From assembly GCF_009720385.1 (NCBI RefSeq), contig NZ_ML769301.1:770911-834910 (forward strand): a stretch of DNA of 64,000 nucleotides, read 5' to 3'. The notes beneath the pieces are model-generated. The model was not told the DNA's origin. It worked only from the letters and a program-made list of their open reading frames with translations, and did not search any database. This document shows positions 37,923 through 46,157 of the stretch, one piece after another. This DNA is from Catellatospora vulcania (lineage in GTDB: Bacteria > Actinomycetota > Actinomycetes > Mycobacteriales > Micromonosporaceae). A program made the position numbers and the translations under genes. Within the stretch, counting starts at the first letter, position 1, and each line of letters begins with the position of its first letter.

Positions 37923-39329
37923 ATGGCCGAGCAGAAGTTCCACACCGGAAGCCACGACCTGCCCGTGTCGGCGGCTCTCGACGAGTTCATGCGCACGGGC
38001 TGGCTCGACTCCGAGCACCACGACCTGCCGCAGGCCGAGGTGGCGGTGTGGACGCCGGCCCGCCGCGCGCGGCTGCACCAGGCGTTCCCGGGGCACCGGA
38101 TCGTCGTGCCGGCGGGCACGTTCCAGGCGCGATCCAATGACCAGGACTACCGGTTCCGGGCGCACTCGGCATACGTGTGGCTGACCGGCGACCAGTCCAG
38201 CGACGGAGTCATGGTCGTCGAGCCGGACGGCGAGAGCACCCTCTACCTGCGTCCGCGGTCGGCGCGCGACAACGGCGAGTTCTTCCGCGACCGCCGCTAC
38301 GGCGAGCTGTGGGCGGGCCGCCGCCCGACGCTGGGCGAGAGCACCCGCGCCCTGGGCGTGACCACCCGCCACCGCGGCGAGCTGGCCGCCGCGCTCAAGC
38401 CGGACACCCCCACGCTCGTGCTGCGCGGCCTGGACGCCGAGGTCGACGCGGCGGTCGCGCCGTCCGACGGCGACGTCGAGCTGAAAGCGGTGCTGGCCGA
38501 GCTGCGTCTGGTCAAGGACGCCTGGGAGATCACCCAGCTGGAGCAGGCCGTCGCGATCACCACCCGCGGCTTCGAGGACGTGGTGCGCGCTCTGCCGCAG
38601 GCCAAGGCGACCTCGGAGCGGCTGCTGGAAGGCGTGTTCTGGCAGCGCGCCCGGCTGGAGGGCAACGAGGTCGGCTACCACTCGATCGTCGCCGCCGGGG
38701 CGCACGCCGCCACGCTGCACTGGATCGACAACGACGGCCCGGTCCGCGACGGCGACCTGCTGCTGCTCGATGCGGGCGTGGAGACGCGCTCGCTCTACAC
38801 CGCCGACATCACCCGGGTGCTGCCCATCTCCGGGCACTTCACCCCGCTGCAGCGCGACCTGTACGAGCTGTGCCGAAAGGCCAACGACGCCGCGCTCGCC
38901 GCGCTGGTGCCCGGGGCTGCCTACCGCGACTTCCACCGCGCCGCGATGCGCGTCTACGCGTACGGCCTGGCCGACCTGGGCATCCTGCCGGTCTCCGCCG
39001 AACAGGCTCTCGACGACGACAGCGGCTTGCACCGGCGCTGGACCCTGTGCGGCTCGGGGCACATGCTCGGCCTCGACGTGCACGACTGCGCGGCGGCGCG
39101 GGCGGACCACTACCTCGACGGGACGCTGACCCCGGGGCACGTGCTGACCGTGGAGCCGGGCATCTACTTCCAGCCCGACGACGGGCTGATCCCGGCCGAG
39201 CTGCGCGGCATGGGCTTCCGGATCGAGGAGGACCTGCTGATCACCGAGACCGGCTACCGGATGCTGTCCGACGGCCTGCCGCGTACCGCGTCCGACGTCG
39301 AGTCCTGGATGCACAGACTGGCTTCTTAA
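37923..39329 (+). CDS. pepP: Xaa-Pro aminopeptidase (aminopeptidase P, M24B)
   Basis: 468 residues from ATG 37923, with a TATGGT -10-like element 12 nt upstream. The N-terminal AMP_N domain (RRARLHQAFPGHRIVVPAGT, NDQDYRFRAHSAYVWLTG) precedes the pita-bread catalytic domain. Dinuclear metal ligands appear in order: Asp in LLLLDAGVE, Asp in YTADITRVLP, His in GSGHMLGLDVHD, Glu in TVEPGIYF and Glu in FRIEEDLLIT. It removes N-terminal residues preceding proline from peptides in the cytoplasm. Length and layout match actinobacterial PepP. Confidence 0.95.
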   Translation: MAEQKFHTGSHDLPVSAALDEFMRTGWLDSEHHDLPQAEVAVWTPARRARLHQAFPGHRIVVPAGTFQARSNDQDYRFRAHSAYVWLTGDQSSDGVMVVEPDGESTLYLRPRSARDNGEFFRDRRYGELWAGRRPTLGESTRALGVTTRHRGELAAALKPDTPTLVLRGLDAEVDAAVAPSDGDVELKAVLAELRLVKDAWEITQLEQAVAITTRGFEDVVRALPQAKATSERLLEGVFWQRARLEGNEVGYHSIVAAGAHAATLHWIDNDGPVRDGDLLLLDAGVETRSLYTADITRVLPISGHFTPLQRDLYELCRKANDAALAALVPGAAYRDFHRAAMRVYAYGLADLGILPVSAEQALDDDSGLHRRWTLCGSGHMLGLDVHDCAAARADHYLDGTLTPGHVLTVEPGIYFQPDDGLIPAELRGMGFRIEEDLLITETGYRMLSDGLPRTASDVESWMHRLAS

Positions 39330-39343
39330 CATTTCGTTCACAA

Positions 39344-39463
39344 GTCCGCAATGGACTGACGTGGTCGGCATGCTGACTGCGTCGCAGGCGCTCCGCGGGG
39401 GACTGTAGAGACCGCGCCGTCACTCGGCGTGATCTTCAATGGTCCCCACGAAAGCGAGCGCCT
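39344..39463 (+). promoter_or_regulatory. 120-nt leader of HAF gene 1, homologous to the leader of HAF gene 4
   Basis: The 120 nt before the start align with 42855-42974 over their whole length (shared GTCCGCAATGGA, GCATGCTGACTGCG, GAGCGCCTGTG). The operator-like GTCGGCATGCTGAC at 39364-39377 begins 100 nt before the start codon. In gene 4 the same site is the perfect palindrome GTCAGCATGCTGAC at the identical distance. Confidence 0.65.
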
Positions 39464-40459
39464 GTGAAAACCGTTCGACGGATACTGTCCGTATCGGTAG
39501 CCGCCGCCGTCGCGCTGGCGGTGTCGCTGCCCGCCGCCCCGGCCTCGGCCGACGGCGGGCTGCACGCCGTCGACCTCGGCACGCTCACCGGTACGTGCTG
39601 CAGCCAGGCGATCGCCATCAACGACCTCGGCGTCGTGGTCGGTTCGAGCCAGGTCGGCACCGGCGAGAACCCGCCCGAGCGGGCGTTCCGGTGGAAAGAC
39701 GGCATCATGATCGACCTTGGCACGCTGGGTGGGTCCCGGTCCGGTGCGGGAGCGATCAACAACAACGGCTGGATCGTCGGCGGGAGCACCCTGCCCGACG
39801 GCAGCATGCGCGCGTTCCTCTGGCGGCCGGGCCTCGGCATGATCAACCTGGGCTCGCTGGGCGGGGAGAGTGTGGCCACCGACGTCAACGACAGCGGCGT
39901 CGTCGTCGGCTACTACGTCCTGAGCGGCGAACTGCGCGGCTTCCGCTGGGTCAACGGGGTGCTCAGCGACCTGAACACCCCGGACGGCTCGGGCTTCGTC
40001 GCGCAGGGCGTCAACAAGAACGGAAAGATCGCCGGTACCCACGTGAGCCAGCCCGCCACCTGGAAGAACGGCATCACGGTGTTGTCCGGGATCGTCGGTG
40101 AGGGCACGGCGGTCAACGACGGCGGCGACGTGTCCTTCGACTCGAGCCAGTCCCCGGCCGTGGTGGGCGTGTGGCGGGCCAACGGCACGGTGCTCACCCT
40201 GAACCCGCCGCCGAACACGGTCGACGCCGCCACCACCGGCATCAACGAGAGCCGGCACACCGTCGGCTGGCGGGTCACCCCGGCCGGCAACTTCCGCGGC
40301 GTGTACTGGTCGGAGCTCGGCACGCCGCACCTGCTGCCGGGCCTGGTGCCGGGCGGCCAGTCGATGGCGTGGGGCATGAACAGCCTCGGCCAGACCGTCG
40401 GCCAGGCGAACCTGACCGCCACCGGCGGGGAGTACCACGCCGTCCTCTGGACCACCTGA
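39464..40459 (+). CDS. secreted HAF-repeat protein 1
   Basis: 331 residues from a GTG at 39464. Signal peptide MKTVRRILSVSVAAAVALAV, cleaved after PASA. The mature protein is built of about 40-residue HAF-family repeats (TIGR02913 type): LGTLTGTCCSQAIAINDLG, ERAFRWKDGIMIDLGTLGG, AGAINNNGWIVGGS, RAFLWRPGLGMINLGSLGG, TDVNDSGVVVGYY, and on to GVYWSELGTPHLLPGLVPGG. Repeats of this type should form a beta-propeller-like structure. A vicinal Cys-Cys lies in the first repeat. It is first of five tandem paralogues; the function is unknown. Gene 2 follows after 69 nt without a strong terminator, so co-transcription is likely. Confidence 0.88.
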   Translation: MKTVRRILSVSVAAAVALAVSLPAAPASADGGLHAVDLGTLTGTCCSQAIAINDLGVVVGSSQVGTGENPPERAFRWKDGIMIDLGTLGGSRSGAGAINNNGWIVGGSTLPDGSMRAFLWRPGLGMINLGSLGGESVATDVNDSGVVVGYYVLSGELRGFRWVNGVLSDLNTPDGSGFVAQGVNKNGKIAGTHVSQPATWKNGITVLSGIVGEGTAVNDGGDVSFDSSQSPAVVGVWRANGTVLTLNPPPNTVDAATTGINESRHTVGWRVTPAGNFRGVYWSELGTPHLLPGLVPGGQSMAWGMNSLGQTVGQANLTATGGEYHAVLWTT

Positions 40460-40528
40460 CCTTTGACCAGCCCGGTCTGTTCAGTCCTGGGCCTGGTGCC
40501 CATGCCCTCTGCGAGAGAGTGAGTGCTC

Positions 40529-41542
40529 GTGAGAACAATTCGACGGATGCTGGCAGCATCGGCTGTCGCCGTCACCATGGCGGTGGTGCCGGCCGCCGCG
40601 CCGGCGACCGCGGCCGCCGGCCCGCACATCGTGGTGCTGGGCACGCTGACCGGCTCCTGCTGCAGCCAGGCGTTCGCCATCAACGACCACGGCGTCGTGG
40701 TCGGCCAGAGCCAGGTCGGCACCCAGGAGAATCCCCCCGAGCGGGCGGTCCGCTGGAAGGACGGCGTGATCACGGACCTCGGCACGCTGGGCGGGCCCAG
40801 GGCGTGGGCGACCGCGATCAACAACAACGGCTGGATCGTCGGCTTCAGCGAGCTGGCCGGCGAAAACGGCAATATCGGGCACGCGTTCCTGTGGCGGCCG
40901 GGCTTGGGCATGATCGACCTGGGTTCGCTGGGCGAGACCAGCATGGCCACCGGCATCAACGACAGTGGTGTCGTGGTCGGCCGGTACGTCGTCAACGGGC
41001 AGCTGCACGGCTTCCGCTGGGCCGGCGGGGTCATGACGAAGATCATCACGCCGACCGGGGAGGGCTTCGACCCGGCGGGCGTGAACAAGCACGGCAAGAT
41101 CGGGGGCTCCCTCAACGGGGAGTACTCCGGCCAGCCCGCCTGGTGGAAGAACGGCCAGACGGTGGCGTCGGGGCTGGTCGGCCATGCCAGCGCCATCAAC
41201 GACAGCGGCGACGTGTCCGGCACGTACTGGGAGCCCACGCAGGGCGCGTTCGTGTGGCGGGCCGACGGCACCGTGCTGCACCTGGGCATGCCCGCCGGGG
41301 CGAAGTTCGCCGAGGCGACCGGGATCAACGAGAGCCGGCACACGGTCGGTCACCGCACCACCGAGTTCGGCAACGTCCGCGCCGTGTACTGGTCGGAGTT
41401 CGGCACGCCGCGCCTGCTGCCCGGGCTGGTGCCGGGCGGGCAGTCGATGGCGTTCGGCATGAACCGGCTCGGCCAGACCGTCGGGCAGGCCAACCTCACC
41501 GCCACGGGCGGCGAGTACACCGCCGTCCTCTGGACCAACTGA
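40529..41542 (+). CDS. secreted HAF-repeat protein 2
   Basis: 337 residues from a GTG at 40529, chosen over a GTG 6 nt earlier by alignment with paralogues 1 and 4 (M-R/K-T-V/I-R-R). The signal peptide ends near APATAAAGP. Repeats include LGTLTGSCCSQAFAINDHG, RAVRWKDGVITDLGTLGG, TAINNNGWIVGFS, HAFLWRPGLGMIDLGSLGE, TGINDSGVVVGRY and the terminal VYWSEFGTPRLLPGLVPGGQ. The vicinal Cys-Cys in repeat 1 is kept. It is very similar to protein 4. The gene ends at a 25-bp hairpin. The function is unknown; extracellular location is inferred. Confidence 0.88.
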   Translation: MRTIRRMLAASAVAVTMAVVPAAAPATAAAGPHIVVLGTLTGSCCSQAFAINDHGVVVGQSQVGTQENPPERAVRWKDGVITDLGTLGGPRAWATAINNNGWIVGFSELAGENGNIGHAFLWRPGLGMIDLGSLGETSMATGINDSGVVVGRYVVNGQLHGFRWAGGVMTKIITPTGEGFDPAGVNKHGKIGGSLNGEYSGQPAWWKNGQTVASGLVGHASAINDSGDVSGTYWEPTQGAFVWRADGTVLHLGMPAGAKFAEATGINESRHTVGHRTTEFGNVRAVYWSEFGTPRLLPGLVPGGQSMAFGMNRLGQTVGQANLTATGGEYTAVLWTN

Positions 41543-41553
41543 GCACCTCGAAC

Positions 41554-41607
41554 CGGGCAGGGTGCCCGGACGCGCGGCTTCGGCCGCGCGTCCGGGCGCC
41601 CTGCCCG
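41554..41607 (+). terminator. 25-bp stem with TTCG tetraloop after HAF gene 2
   Basis: Arms CGGGCAGGG-T-GCCCGGACGC and onward (41554-41578) pair with 41583-41607 throughout, with one G-T wobble and a TTCG loop. It begins 11 nt after the HAF gene 2 stop. This is the strongest hairpin seen in the window. Confidence 0.92.
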
Positions 41608-41704
41608 CGTCATCGGCCGAACGGCCGAGTTGGCTGTCGACAATGGATGGTTGAACCGGTCGCCAATCCGATTGCGCCGTCAACATATCGGAGGAGACTT
41701 CGTG

Positions 41705-41759
41705 GATCAGGCCCCACGGGGGGCGTGAACCTCTGTCCCACTAGAGAAAGCGACAGCCT
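41705..41759 (+). promoter_or_regulatory. short leader of HAF gene 3 with conserved GC hairpin
   Basis: GATCAGGCCCCACGGGGGGC followed by an A/G-rich GAGAAAGCGACAGCCT before the GTG. The same order (GATCAGGCCCTACGGGGGCC, then GAGAAAAGAGAGCCTG before a TTG) occurs before HAF gene 5 at 44136-44182. The GGCCC/GGGCC stem is kept in both. Confidence 0.5.
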
Positions 41760-42779
41760 GTGCAGAGAACTCGTCTTCGTGCGCTCATCGCGTCCCTGGC
41801 CGTGCTGGCCGCCGGTGCGGTGGCACTGCCCGCCTCCCCGGCAGCGGCGGCCGACCCGGTGCAGATCATCGATCTGGGCACCCTCGGCGGCGCGTGCTGC
41901 AGCGCCGCGACCGCTGTCAACGACAACGGCGTGGTCGTCGGCTACAGCGGGGCACCGGGCCAGACCGCCCCGATGCGCGCGTTCCGCTGGAAGAACGGCG
42001 TCATGACCGACATCGGCAGCCTGGGCGGCACGCGGACCTACCCAGCCGACGTCAACAACAACGGCTGGATCGTCGGCTTCAGCCTGCTGGCCGACAACGT
42101 CACCACGCACGCCTTCCTGTGGCGGCCGAACCTGGGCATGACCGACCTCGGCGCCCTGGACGGCAACTACAGCTCGGCCACCGGCGTCAACGACAACGGC
42201 GTGGTGGTCGGCCGGGCGATCGTCGACGGCACCACGACGAGCTTCCGCTGGGCGGCCGGGGTGATGACCGAGCTCGACTATCCCGCCGGGAGCATGAACC
42301 TGACCTTCACGGCCCAGGCGGTCAACAACAGCGGGGTCGTCGCCGGCGATCTCGGTGACATGGCCGCCAGGCTGGTCAACGGCAACGCTACGACGGCGCC
42401 GTCGCCGGAGCCGCGCGGCTCGTGGGCCGAGGGGATCAACAACGCTGGTGACATCGCGGGCACGTGGTGGGAGGACACCGACGGCGCCTTCGTGTGGAAG
42501 TCCGACGGGACCGTGGTGACGCTGGCCAAGCCCACCGGCGCCTTCGGCGCGTACCCGGCCGACATCAACGACGACGGTGACTCGGTGGGCTCCAGCTACT
42601 ACACCAGCGGCCCGACCAGGGCCGTCTACTGGTCCGAGACCGGCGTGGTGCACCGGCTGCCGAGCCTGGTCACCGGTGCCGGAACGCTGGCGCAGGCAGT
42701 CAACAAGTTCGGCGTGACGGTCGGCACCGCGCAGGTGTCGGTCGGCGGCGACTGGCACGCGGTGATCTGGACCCACTGA
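41760..42779 (+). CDS. secreted HAF-repeat protein 3
   Basis: 339 residues from a GTG at 41760. Signal peptide MQRTRLRALIASLAVLAAGA with cleavage near PAAAADP. Repeats: LGTLGGACCSAATAVNDNG, RAFRWKNGVMTDIGSLGG, ADVNNNGWIVGFS, HAFLWRPNLGMTDLGALDG, TGVNDNGVVVGRA, then AVNNSGVVAGDLGD and YWSETGVVHRLPSLVTGAG. The vicinal Cys-Cys of the first repeat is present. It groups with protein 5 by leader type and by its C-terminal repeats (SETGVVH). A strong terminator follows. Extracellular location is inferred; the role is unknown. Confidence 0.88.
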   Translation: MQRTRLRALIASLAVLAAGAVALPASPAAAADPVQIIDLGTLGGACCSAATAVNDNGVVVGYSGAPGQTAPMRAFRWKNGVMTDIGSLGGTRTYPADVNNNGWIVGFSLLADNVTTHAFLWRPNLGMTDLGALDGNYSSATGVNDNGVVVGRAIVDGTTTSFRWAAGVMTELDYPAGSMNLTFTAQAVNNSGVVAGDLGDMAARLVNGNATTAPSPEPRGSWAEGINNAGDIAGTWWEDTDGAFVWKSDGTVVTLAKPTGAFGAYPADINDDGDSVGSSYYTSGPTRAVYWSETGVVHRLPSLVTGAGTLAQAVNKFGVTVGTAQVSVGGDWHAVIWTH

Positions 42780-42789
42780 CGCGGTCGAA

Positions 42790-42827
42790 CGGGCCGGGCG
42801 TGGCCCCATGGGGTAACGCCCGGCCCG
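42790..42827 (+). terminator. 12-bp stem terminator after HAF gene 3
   Basis: Perfect inverted repeat CGGGCCGGGCGT / ACGCCCGGCCCG. The 14-nt loop itself contains CCCCATGGGG. It starts 11 nt after the stop. Confidence 0.85.
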
Positions 42828-42854
42828 CTACTCCGTTCGACATCGCAGCCAGCC

Positions 42855-42974
42855 GTCCGCAATGGACCGCGGCGGTCAGCATGCTGACTGCGCGACAGGC
42901 GTCCGGCAGGGCACCGTGAAGGCCACGCCATCACCCGGCGTGGCCTTCGGCCGTCCGCGAGGAAGTGAGCGCCT
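42855..42974 (+). promoter_or_regulatory. 120-nt leader of HAF gene 4 with perfect palindrome
   Basis: Homologous end to end with 39344-39463. GTCAGCATGCTGAC at 42875-42888 is a perfect 14-bp palindrome 100 nt before the start. It is a candidate operator shared by the HAF cluster. Confidence 0.65.
42919..42947 (+). terminator. 11-bp hairpin inside the HAF gene 4 leader
   Basis: AAGGCCACGCC / GGCGTGGCCTT with a 7-nt loop, 27 nt before the start. The equivalent place in leader 1 keeps only the inner CGCC/GGCG part. It could be an attenuator or an mRNA-stabilising structure. Confidence 0.5.
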
Positions 42975-43979
42975 GTGAGAACAGTCCGTCGGATACTGTC
43001 CGTACCGGTCATCGCAGTCCTGCTGGCGGTGTCCCTGCAAGCCGCCCCGGCCGGGGCCGCCGGCCCGCACATCGTCGTCCTGGGCAACCTGTCCGGCAGC
43101 TGCTGCAGCGGGGCTCTCGCGATCAACGACCTCGGCGTCGTGGTCGGCTACAGCATGGTCGGCACCGGCGAGAACCCGCCCGAACACGCCTTCCGCTGGA
43201 AGAACGGCGTGCTGACCGACCTCGGCACGCTGGGCGGCGTCCGCGCGGTCGCCACCGCGATCAACAACAACGGCTGGATCGTCGGCTACAGCGAGCTGAC
43301 CCCGGGCGACTTCCTCACCCACGCGTTCCTGTGGCGGCCGGGCATCGGCATGACCGACCTGGGTTCGCTCGGCGCCAGCAGCATCGCCACCGGCATCAAC
43401 GACAGCGGCGTGGTCGTCGGCCGGTATCTGCTCGACGGCGAGCTGCACGGCTTCCGCTGGTCCGGCGGCGTGACGACCACGATCGATGGCCCGGACGGGG
43501 TGCGCTTCGACGCGGCGGGCATCAACAAGCACGGCAAGATGGGCGGCACTCTTTACAGGTACCCCGGTGACCCGGCCACCTGGAAGAACGGCCAGGTGGT
43601 GGCCTCCGGCCTGGTCGGCCACGCCACCGGCATCAACGACAACGGCGACGTGTCCGGCACGTACTGGGACTCCCGGCAGGGCGCGTTCGTGTGGCGGGCC
43701 GACGGCACCGTGCTGCACCTGGCCATGCCCGCCGGGGGTGTGCTGGCCACGACGACCGGGCTCAACGAGAGCCGGCACACGGTCGGCTGGCGATCGGCCG
43801 AGGACGGGTCCACCCGCGCCGTGTACTGGTCGGAGTTCGGCACGCCGCGCCTGCTTCCCGGCCTGATGCCGGGCGGCGGATCGGGGGCCTGGGGCGTGAA
43901 CCGGCTCGGCCAGACCGTCGGGCAGGCCAACCTGAACGCCACCGGCACCGAGTACATTGCGGTGCTCTGGACGCGCTGA
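42975..43979 (+). CDS. secreted HAF-repeat protein 4
   Basis: 334 residues from a GTG at 42975. Signal peptide MRTVRRILSVPVIAVLLAVS, cleaved near PAGAAGP. Repeats: LGNLSGSCCSGALAINDLG, HAFRWKNGVLTDLGTLGG, TAINNNGWIVGYS, HAFLWRPGIGMTDLGSLGA, TGINDSGVVVGRY, INDNGDVSGTYW and VYWSEFGTPRLLPGLMPGGG. The Cys-Cys pair in repeat 1 is kept. It is closest to protein 2 in repeats and to protein 1 in leader and signal peptide, so the block probably duplicated and recombined. The function is unknown. Confidence 0.88.
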   Translation: MRTVRRILSVPVIAVLLAVSLQAAPAGAAGPHIVVLGNLSGSCCSGALAINDLGVVVGYSMVGTGENPPEHAFRWKNGVLTDLGTLGGVRAVATAINNNGWIVGYSELTPGDFLTHAFLWRPGIGMTDLGSLGASSIATGINDSGVVVGRYLLDGELHGFRWSGGVTTTIDGPDGVRFDAAGINKHGKMGGTLYRYPGDPATWKNGQVVASGLVGHATGINDNGDVSGTYWDSRQGAFVWRADGTVLHLAMPAGGVLATTTGLNESRHTVGWRSAEDGSTRAVYWSEFGTPRLLPGLMPGGGSGAWGVNRLGQTVGQANLNATGTEYIAVLWTR

Positions 43980-44182
43980 TACCGCTCGCACGGCCCGGTG
44001 TCTGCCGTTGCGTCGCAACGGTGACATCGGGCCGCGCGAAGTATGGCGCAACCGCTGAGTGCCCGGTCGCCATTGGACGATCATCACGGATCGTAGCGCC
44101 GATGCCCCACCGGCTGCGGCGTTGCATACTGCGGTGATCAGGCCCTACGGGGGCCGTGACACCTGCGAGAAAAGAGAGCCTG

Positions 44183-45199
44183 TTGAAGGCAGATCGTCGT
44201 CAAATCCTGACCATCGGCGTGTCCGCGGCGATCGCGGCCGCCACCGCGCCGCTGGTGTCCTCGCCGGCGTTCGCGGCTGCACCGCAGATCACCGATCTCG
44301 GCCTGCTGCCGGGCACCACCGACAGCGTCGCGACCGACCTCAACGAGCACGGCGTCGTCGTCGGCAACAGCACCATCGGCAGCGGCCCGACGCAGGTCGC
44401 CCGCGCGTTCCGCTGGAAGAACGGCGTGCTGTCCGACCTCGGCTCGCTGGGCGGGCAGAAGGTCAGCGCCATCGGGATCAACAACAACGGCTGGATCGTC
44501 GGCTCCAGCACACTGGCCGACAACACCACCTACCGGGCGTTCCTCTGGCGGCCGGGACTGGGCATGGTCCCGGTCGGTCCCGTGGACGGCTTCGCCAACG
44601 ACATCAACGACGCGGGCGTGGTGGTGGGCCACTACTACGACCAGGAGTTCGGCCGGCGGGGATTCCGCTGGGAGAACGGCGTGACAACCGTGGTCGAGTA
44701 CGCAGCCGGCGGGACAGACCTCGAATGGCGCAAGTTCCTGCCCACGCAGATCAATAACAACGGGGTGATCACCGGCGACAACCGGGACCAGGCCGCTCGC
44801 TGGGTGAACGGCACCGTCACCATCGCCGGCACGGGAGGCGCGTGGTCCGGGGGCATCAACGCGGCCGGCGACGTGACCGTCACCACCTACTCGCCGACGG
44901 AGAGCGCCTTCGTGTGGAAGGCGGACGGCGCCACCCGCCCGCTGCAGGTCCCCGCGGGCGCCGACCGGGTGTGGCCGACGGGCATCAACGCCGACGGCGA
45001 CGCGGTCGGCAGCGCCAACACCGGCAACAACAACATCATGCGGGCGGTGTACTGGTCGGAGACCGGCGTGGTGCACAGCCTGCCGAGCCTCGTGCCGGGT
45101 GGGCAGGCCGGCGCGACGCGGGTGAACAACAGCAGCCAGGTCGTCGGCTGGGCACACCTCGCCGACGGCACGACCCGCGCGGTGCTCTGGAAGTCCTGA
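44183..45199 (+). CDS. secreted HAF-repeat protein 5, lacking the Cys-Cys pair
   Basis: 338 residues from a TTG at 44183, matching the start position of the paralogues (GAGAGCCTG just upstream); a GTG at 44156 would add 9 residues. The N terminus LKADRRQILTIGVSAAIAAA could be a Sec or Tat-like signal, cleaved near PAFAAAP. HAF repeats are clear (ARAFRWKNGVLSDLGSLGG, IGINNNGWIVGSS, RAFLWRPGLGM, YWSETGVVHSLPSLVPGGQ). The Cys-Cys of proteins 1-4 is replaced by PGTTDSVATDLN. This divergence may mean a different partner or loss of a disulfide or metal site. A hairpin follows. Confidence 0.86.
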   Translation: MKADRRQILTIGVSAAIAAATAPLVSSPAFAAAPQITDLGLLPGTTDSVATDLNEHGVVVGNSTIGSGPTQVARAFRWKNGVLSDLGSLGGQKVSAIGINNNGWIVGSSTLADNTTYRAFLWRPGLGMVPVGPVDGFANDINDAGVVVGHYYDQEFGRRGFRWENGVTTVVEYAAGGTDLEWRKFLPTQINNNGVITGDNRDQAARWVNGTVTIAGTGGAWSGGINAAGDVTVTTYSPTESAFVWKADGATRPLQVPAGADRVWPTGINADGDAVGSANTGNNNIMRAVYWSETGVVHSLPSLVPGGQAGATRVNNSSQVVGWAHLADGTTRAVLWKS

Positions 45200-45215
45200 C
45201 CCGATCGGCGACGAC

Positions 45216-45244
45216 GGCAGGTCCCGATCGGCGCGGGGCCTGCC
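45216..45244 (+). terminator. 10-bp stem terminator closing the HAF cluster
   Basis: GGCAGGTCCC pairs with GGGGCCTGCC (one G-T) with a 9-nt loop, 17 nt after the stop of HAF gene 5. Confidence 0.72.
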
Positions 45245-45293
45245 CGTGAAACCTCGCGCAGCGGCTGGACCGGCTCGACTAGGCTCGCCGATC

Positions 45294-46157
45294 GTGACCG
45301 TGGTCTTCTGCGCCGACCCACTCGCCCCGACCCGCCCCGATCCGCACTTCGCCGCCCAGGTCCGAGCCGTGCGAGACGCGGGCGGCGCCGTGGCCCTGCT
45401 CGACCATGACGCCCTGCTGGCCGGTGACCTCGCCACCGCGGTCCGCCGCATCCCGCGTGACCTGGGCGAGGTCTGGTACCGCGGCTGGATGGTTCCGGCG
45501 GGCCGCTACGCCGAGCTGGCCGACACGCTCGCCGGGCGAGGGGTGACCCTGCGCGTCTCCGCGGCCGCCTACCGGGCCGCACATGAGCTGCCCGGTTGGT
45601 ACGCCGCCCTGGCGCCGGTGACGCCGGCCAGCGTATGGACGCCCTGGCAGCCCGGCGAGTCGCCGAGCGTCGAGCAGGTCGCCGAGCTCGTCGCGCCGCT
45701 GGGCGGCGGACCTGGCGTCGTCAAGGACTACGTCAAGTCCCGCAAGCACGAGTGGGCCGAGGCCTGCTACATCCCGGACCTCGCCGACGTCACGCCCGCG
45801 CATCGCGTCGTGTCCCGCATGGTCGAACTGCAGGAGGAGTTCCTGCAGGGCGGCATCGTGGTGCGCCGGTTCGAGGACTTCGCCCGGCAGGGCGGCCGCA
45901 CCGTCGAGGCCCGGGTGTGGTGGGTGCACGGTGAGCCGGTCCTGGCCGGTCCGCACCCGGACACCCCGGACCTGTTCCGCGAGCCCGACCTGTCGGCGAT
46001 CACCCCACTGGTGGCCGCGTTCGGGCACCCGTTCGTCACCACCGATGTCGCGCTGCGTGACGACGGGACCTGGCGGGTGGTCGAACTGGGTGACGGTCAG
46101 GTCAGCGATCTGCCGACGGTGCTCGATCCGTCCGCTGTCCTCGACCACCTGAACTGA
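45294..46157 (+). CDS. ATP-grasp domain protein (DUF4343-like)
   Basis: 287 residues from a GTG at 45294. A GTG at 45246 lies against the upstream terminator, whereas TAGGCT just before 45294 looks like a -10, so the mRNA is probably leaderless. The N-terminal preATP-grasp part (TVVFCADPLAPTRPD, GEVWYRGWMVPAGRYAELA) leads to a C-terminal ATP-grasp region (GGPGVVKDYVKSRKHEWAEA with lysine, RRFEDFARQGGRTVEARVWW, and DDGTWRVVELGDGQVSDLPT with the metal-binding acidic residues). The family ligates amino or carboxyl substrates; the substrate is unknown. Confidence 0.85.
   Translation: MTVVFCADPLAPTRPDPHFAAQVRAVRDAGGAVALLDHDALLAGDLATAVRRIPRDLGEVWYRGWMVPAGRYAELADTLAGRGVTLRVSAAAYRAAHELPGWYAALAPVTPASVWTPWQPGESPSVEQVAELVAPLGGGPGVVKDYVKSRKHEWAEACYIPDLADVTPAHRVVSRMVELQEEFLQGGIVVRRFEDFARQGGRTVEARVWWVHGEPVLAGPHPDTPDLFREPDLSAITPLVAAFGHPFVTTDVALRDDGTWRVVELGDGQVSDLPTVLDPSAVLDHLN

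Follow-up and report, generated by a model that had tools for sequence, protein, structure and literature searches.

The window considered here is a stretch of 64,000 nucleotides from Catellatospora vulcania (assembly GCF_009720385.1, contig NZ_ML769301.1, positions 770,911 to 834,910 of the forward strand), and the subject is an island of five HAF repeat genes at positions 39464-45199, all on the + strand. An earlier note on this DNA had described five same-strand paralogues forming one island. Each gene was found where that note had put it, and the description was confirmed by a whole-genome search, in which the gene-4 protein matched exactly five places (8.83 Mb, 36 contigs; E ≤ 0.001), namely the island itself. 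All 13 matches of the HAF_rpt model TIGR02913 in this genome fell within the five genes, and the pairwise identity among their proteins was 44-73% (all ten pairs). The coordinates of the genes, their borders and the regulatory features are given in Table 1.

A search of each protein against HAF models, proposed in the same note, gave matches to TIGR02913 (NCBIfam) in all five, with E-values of 3e-27 to 2e-36 and scores of 94-123 bits (curated cut-off 22.65 bits). The sole recurring Pfam match was DUF3466 (PF11949; gathering cut-off 25.1 bits), which was above the cut-off in gene 2 (32.8) and scored 14.4-19.3 in the other four. No catalytic domain was found above cut-off in the five proteins using Pfam and NCBIfam, and the matches to FG-GAP_3 and EpuA (Pfam) and TIGR00007 (NCBIfam) lay far under their cut-offs. 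The N-termini of all five proteins appeared signal-peptide-like by eye, with A-x-A ends, and the proteins are probably exported. Thus, the proposed architecture of a signal peptide followed by HAF repeats only was upheld by the model scans, the signals being judged by eye. The RR pair in genes 1, 2, 4 and 5 allows a guess at twin-arginine translocation (Tat) signals; no Tat model of Pfam or NCBIfam matched any of the five proteins up to E 1. The gene-5 protein and its clade have a common start, KADRR(Q/K/R)(V/I)L (window positions 44183-44210), which is Tat-signal-like by eye.

Table 1. Positions of the HAF genes, their borders and the associated regulatory features in the window
Feature	Position	Strand	Remarks
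Left border, aminopeptidase-P-like gene (M24, PepP)	37923-39329	+	exists also at island-less loci
Type A leader of gene 1	39344-39463	+	GTCCGCAATGGAC at 39344-39356; palindromic GGTCGGCATGCTGACTGCG at 39363-39381; hairpin/BldD-box region
BldD-box match TCACTCGGCGTGA	39420-39432	+	fits TNAC(N)5GTNA; overlaps hairpin stem CGCGCCG/CGGCGTG
HAF gene 1	39464-40459	+	signal-like N-terminus, then HAF repeats; Cys-Cys at 39596-39601
HAF gene 2	40529-41542	+	Cys-Cys at 40658-40663; may share a transcript with gene 1
Strong hairpin after gene 2	41549-41615	+	-66 kcal/mol
Type B1 leader of gene 3	41637-41759	+	common to coxensis gene 3 and the last methionotrophica gene
HAF gene 3	41760-42779	+	Cys-Cys at 41895-41900
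Strong hairpin after gene 3	42781-42846	+	-44 kcal/mol
Type A leader of gene 4	42855-42974	+	palindrome at 42874-42892; degenerate box TCACCCGGCGTGG
HAF gene 4	42975-43979	+	Cys-Cys at 43101-43106; modelled by AlphaFold as a seven-bladed propeller
Strong hairpin after gene 4	43986-44039	+	-45 kcal/mol
Type B2 leader core of gene 5, GCATACTGCGGTGATC	44124-44139	+	exact genus matches only before gene-5-type genes
HAF gene 5	44183-45199	+	TTG start; without cysteine; AlphaFold model is a propeller too
Weaker hairpin after gene 5	45216-45244	+	directly 5' of the ATP-grasp start codon
Right border, R2K-clade ATP-grasp gene	45246-46157	+	exists also at island-less loci

Copy number at one chromosomal address

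The closest named relatives were Catellatospora methionotrophica, C. coxensis, Catellatospora sp. KI3 and C. tritici. Between the PepP and R2K ATP-grasp genes, five HAF genes were found in the window, four in C. methionotrophica (G004), three in C. coxensis (G003) and one each in G001 and G007; in the synteny comparison suggested in the earlier note, HAF genes were present at this address in 5 of the 11 genus genomes, that of the window included. None was found between these flanks in G002, G005 and G006, where they are no more than about 115 bases apart; about 4-5 kb without any HAF match lies between them in G008 and G010. G009 was not counted at this address, its PepP gene being at a contig end; G008, G009 and G010 carry HAF genes at other places. 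In G010, the PepP/ATP-grasp locus was present on both contigs C34 and C43 with equal scores, perhaps as a duplicated assembly stretch, and one of the two copies was read. Tblastn matches covering less than 30% of the query length or overlapping a better match were dropped, and two others were set aside, namely G004:C1:4245-4319 (E 8.4e-4) and the fourth G008 match of the gene-1 protein search. The comparison establishes a lineage-specific expansion in which copy number changed at one chromosomal address. In the tree of the flanking genes, G001 and G007 lay outside the group of the window, G003, G004, G002, G005 and G006 (support 100/99), the inner order of which was unresolved; the simplest reading would be one gain before the split of G001 and G007, followed by losses. 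The identity of the window proteins to their coxensis and methionotrophica HAF counterparts was 73-85% (7 pairs); among the neighbours in the same two species, it was 97% for PepP, 92-93% for LacI and 84-85% for ATP-grasp.

In the first gene tree, genes 1, 2 and 4 with their relatives formed one clade (91/97), gene 3 paired with coxensis gene 3, and gene 5 clustered with five genes, four of them off the island address. In the second tree, the group of genes 1, 2 and 4 was unresolved, and gene 3 was joined to the gene-5 clade at 86/85. The G008 protein L119 (30% identity) was in no tree. The two leader families that the earlier note had distinguished stand as DNA leaders (type A before genes 1 and 4, type B before genes 3 and 5), but the A-B block duplication read from their order was rejected in favour of separate duplications. 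This duplication is unlikely because the path between genes 3 and 5 in the first tree (1.45) is far deeper than that between genes 2 and 4 (0.40). The 3-type and 5-type genes evolve about twice as fast as the 2-type (our own estimate from orthologue paths), a rate difference insufficient to close the gap, and gene-5-type genes sit elsewhere in three other species. The last HAF gene of C. methionotrophica (L115:7316-8332, - strand) combines a protein of the gene-5 type with a leader of the gene-3 type, a sign of a natural exchange between leader and coding sequence.

Predicted fold and the Cys-Cys pair

Structure modelling, also proposed earlier, yielded seven-bladed beta-propellers for both proteins modelled. 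The AlphaFold2 model of the gene-4 protein had a mean predicted local distance difference test score (pLDDT) of 95.5, a predicted template modelling score (pTM) of 0.93 and 28 strands, which we assigned to seven blades of four, with the N-terminal strand closing blade 7. The model of the gene-5 protein, the most divergent, had a pLDDT of 95.1, a pTM of 0.92 and 28 strands plus one short helix. The alignments used held 39 sequences (gene 4; the window and related loci) and 30 sequences, five of them from the window in each. A closed globular seven-bladed propeller is thus well predicted for two of the five proteins, and it lends no support to the earlier suggestion that they form aggregates. 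In a Foldseek search against the PDB (599 matches at E ≤ 10, the listing giving 50 of them), the matches listed were all propeller-type by name and included the designed Pizza proteins, the extracellular sensor domain of PknD and the lectins PHL, PLL5 and AAL. No solved homologue was found by sequence up to E 1. A profile search against solved chains gave one match at E 0.25, which was discarded, and Foldseek against viral proteins returned generic repeat and propeller proteins.

Variability was evaluated in 22 genus proteins, with strand boundaries taken from the model. The mean entropy was 1.54 in the BC and DA loops (79 columns) versus 0.95 in the AB and CD turns (54 columns), a difference reached by none of 10,000 permutations. 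The ratio of nonsynonymous to synonymous substitution rates (dN/dS, Nei-Gojobori) was 0.24-0.78 in 13 orthologue or near-orthologue pairs and 0.63-0.89 in five paralogue pairs.

An adjacent Cys-Cys pair, placed where strand A of blade 1 begins, was present in all 16 of these proteins outside the gene-5 clade; it comprised the only cysteines in 13 of the 16 carriers, the remaining three having one additional cysteine. The gene-5 clade had the pair in none of its six members, two of which have a single cysteine. Among 36 loci from other genera of Micromonosporaceae, some of which are one gene counted twice, L245 alone had Cys-Cys at the blade-1 place. Among the 46 frames read out of 78 named loci, the pair was found in five Catellatospora loci and in L046, where it lies N-terminal to the repeats. 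From the propeller topology, the pair is expected to lie close to the channel on the loop face, and it may form a vicinal disulfide there. A C-x-C pair near frame residue 227-266 was observed in place of Cys-Cys in several HAF proteins from related genera (L246, L248-L252, L256-L258, L263 and L265). A single clade of all Cys-Cys proteins including L245 was rejected by the approximately unbiased test (p-AU 5.6e-05), with long branches in play and the group picked after the first tree had been seen.

Leaders, hairpins and a putative BldD box

The leaders of the 22 genus genes were typed by eye as A (nine), B1 (three), B2 (five) and C (three), and no full leader of any of these types preceded gene 2 of the window or gene 2 of methionotrophica. 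For cox3, met5, trit and G8b, the start used was off by one to three codons, which shifted the numbering and left the motifs unaffected. The mean column identity of the type A leaders was 81%. In the 11 genomes, GTCRGCATGCTGACTGCG had 7 exact sites, every one upstream of a HAF gene, and three sites with one mismatch, of which two belong to further HAF leaders and one is an exact site read in reverse; 43 of its 53 sites carried two mismatches. The reversed pattern used as control had 10 sites in total. The motif GCATACTGCNGTGATC had five exact sites, all upstream of gene-5-type genes (reversed control 1), and two one-mismatch sites, both in G010 without HAF sequence downstream. In another leader-motif search, 39 of 41 sites were at three mismatches. 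The exact forms of the two motifs were thus specific to HAF genes in the genomes compared, and through them no functional partner genes were found in the 11 genomes. A search of the leaders for Rfam riboswitches gave seven matches up to E 5, none near the gathering score. In the type C leaders (upstream of the HAF genes in L120, L121 and L122), the AATGGAC core known from types A and B recurs as its reverse complement within GTCCATTTCGGAGCAGACTG.

The earlier note had placed strong terminators after genes 2, 3 and 5; strong hairpins were found after genes 2 and 3, whereas that after gene 5 was weaker and gene 4 had a strong one. The intergenic regions after genes 2, 3 and 4, which include the next leader, folded at z -6.9, -4.5 and -4.1, and that after gene 5 at z -2.1. 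Genes 1 and 2 may be co-transcribed, because their gap of 69 bases folds no more strongly than shuffles (z -0.2). The scan gave 6 T-run terminator-like sites, all on the - strand and none on the +, so the + strand hairpins are without a T-run. No sigma-70-type promoter appeared in the scan, 0.3 being expected by chance. The transcription units would be 1-2, 3, 4 and 5, and the idea of a separately expressed set agrees with several likely units and with the hairpins after genes 2, 3 and 4.

The box recognised by BldD is given in a portion of one study as TNAC(N)5GTNA (PMC4151990). The form TCAC-N5-GTGA was present in eight of the nine type A leaders, and none was seen by eye in type B or C leaders. 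The BldD-like_C model (presumably PF21179, its name being confirmed by the match) had one match in the genome (E 1.6e-30). This homologue matched the chains 2ewt (E 3e-32) and 4oaz (E 2e-19) in phmmer; both are listed as DNA-binding proteins, and we take them to be BldD. Upstream of its gene (L231:1866-2399, contig 9 of the window genome) lies the near BldD box TCACGCTGCGTAG, which suggests that the homologue may be autoregulated. The other four genome places of TCACNCNGCGTGA (reversed control 1) include one inside a frame of GGDEF type, named by eye, and one near a frame start, and the remaining two appear coding; the four bring no validation of the box. The looser box form occurred four times in the window versus 5.6 expected. 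BldD control of the type A units is conceivable, at well short of even chances.

Interpretation and known systems

We read the island as a lineage-specific family of exported seven-bladed HAF propellers that bind an extracellular ligand and are possibly under developmental control, a reading to which we give slightly better than even chances. The fold prediction is firm; what we infer are secretion, ligand and regulation. Once secreted, the propellers would bind an extracellular ligand, for which a sugar from the envelope, the matrix or the surroundings is the likeliest candidate. Contact would be made through the loop face formed by the BC and DA loops, at which the Cys-Cys pair would form its disulfide, and the paralogues would differ in specificity. 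The type A units may be repressed by BldD until development begins, with the modest chance given to BldD control above. A more specific version, in which cyclic di-GMP and BldD time extracellular sugar-binding propellers whose vicinal disulfide holds the ligand in a clamp or serves as a redox switch, making up a hyphal-surface lectin repertoire of a new type, seems a long shot.

Several observations weigh against parts of this reading. The presence of the box in the window is not significant, because strict TCAC-N5-GTGA occurs twice with 0.94 expected by chance, as many being reached in 20 of 100 shuffles; the argument rests on its conserved place. The box in the gene-4 leader is degenerate, with GTGG in place of GTGA. 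Of the 57 invariant columns among the 123 of the type A leaders, 46 lie outside the box, and the box overlaps a hairpin stem shared by the box-less type C leaders. The motif GTCSNCAATGGAC of the type A leaders had 7 exact genome sites, five off the island and two within it (reversed control 2). The likeness to PDB chains is at fold level only, with template modelling (TM) scores of 0.42-0.67 by query length, and the Foldseek matches listed include enzymes, namely CylK, virginiamycin B lyase, peptidases and glycoside hydrolases. Across the 22 proteins, strands A (1.60) and D (1.42) were more variable than the DA loops (1.21). Within the clade of genes 1, 2 and 4 (14 proteins), the loop-turn difference was reduced to 1.08 versus 0.77 (p 0.0135) and was carried by the BC loops only (DA 0.81). 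No overall sign of positive selection was found by dN/dS in the 13 orthologue or near-orthologue pairs.

The island could instead reflect near-neutral birth and death of a dispensable exported repeat protein, its redundant copies having no distinct ligands. Its absence from three relatives with intact flanks and its fast evolution relative to the neighbouring genes are in keeping with this account; however, all five copies in the window have open, full-length frames, dN/dS was below 1 in all 13 pairs, the leader blocks are conserved, and Cys-Cys is retained in 16 of 16 proteins. We consider such redundancy unlikely. An enzyme of the lyase or hydrolase type, with an active site unseen by the family models, is in our view very improbable: virginiamycin B lyase had the highest TM score among the matches listed (0.63-0.67), and CylK and propeller glycoside hydrolases appeared as well, but no catalytic family matched above cut-off, the identity to those chains was 9-13%, and the invariant or near-invariant columns were Gly, Asn and Leu only in one alignment and mostly so in another. 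Regulation raises a further alternative, namely that the leader hairpins act as RNA, through control of translation or attenuation, instead of serving BldD or another protein as operators. Folding of the region before gene 1 reaches z -6.3, the nine leaders retain most of the predicted stem pairs, and the CACGCC/GGCGTG stem recurs in the box-less type C leaders. Nevertheless, a double change was found in only two of 26 predicted pairs, too few for proof of covariation, no Rfam match exceeded the gathering score, the loop bases TCAC are invariant, and the palindromes are equally suited as DNA operators; we judge a role as RNA rather doubtful.

The expansion is a moderate surprise, since exported repeat proteins commonly expand in tandem, and it is the Cys-Cys pair and the HAF-only leaders that make the island worth testing. 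HAF repeats are widespread and functionally uncharacterised in the literature searched, and the island offers a confident fold prediction. The presence or absence of Cys-Cys in sister clades is a discrete chemical feature, the BldD box provides a testable regulatory hypothesis, and the island-less species are a ready natural control.

HAF matches were found in 104 of 300 genomes of the same family (18 of 44 genera) and in several other phyla, and the search with the gene-1 protein gave matches in 127 of 354 such genomes (21 of 44 genera). No functional study of HAF repeats was found in the open-licence literature, subscription papers lying outside this search. In the portions of the sources considered, an extracellular HAF repeat domain and autotransporter protein of Agrobacterium is called exported and likely to mediate attachment, without a test there (PMC8685578), an autotransporter of the HAF family is mentioned in Chlamydia (PMC2873915), a DUF3466 protein with a Sec signal is tabulated in a paper on outer membrane vesicles (PMC10049053), and another appears among GlyGly-CTERM proteins (PMC3237569). 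Ten distant HAF proteins were selected by eye for C-termini resembling PEP-CTERM tags, and 8 of them matched PEP-CTERM models; the surface location proposed in the earlier note is plausible by this analogy only. Among ten longer HAF relatives, four had Ig, cadherin, PKD, DUF4214, secretion-tail or PEP-CTERM matches; the other six had weak or no matches besides DUF3466, with no clear clue to a ligand. A longer HAF protein of G008 (L119:8546-9562, 625-aa frame) has a C-terminal extension that looks carbohydrate-binding-like by eye, and no Pfam match to it was found up to E 0.01.

Compared with known systems, the island proteins share the propeller fold, by model, with the lectins PHL, PLL5 and AAL and with the extracellular domain of PknD (TM 0.43-0.57), but have no detected sequence relationship to any solved chain. 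To DUF3466 proteins (PF11949), they show a weak repeat likeness that passes the cut-off in gene 2 only. With other HAF repeat proteins (TIGR02913), they have in common the repeat and the lack of a detected catalytic domain, whereas they differ in being without PEP-CTERM or another domain and in forming a tandem set of five with HAF-only leader motifs and Cys-Cys in four.

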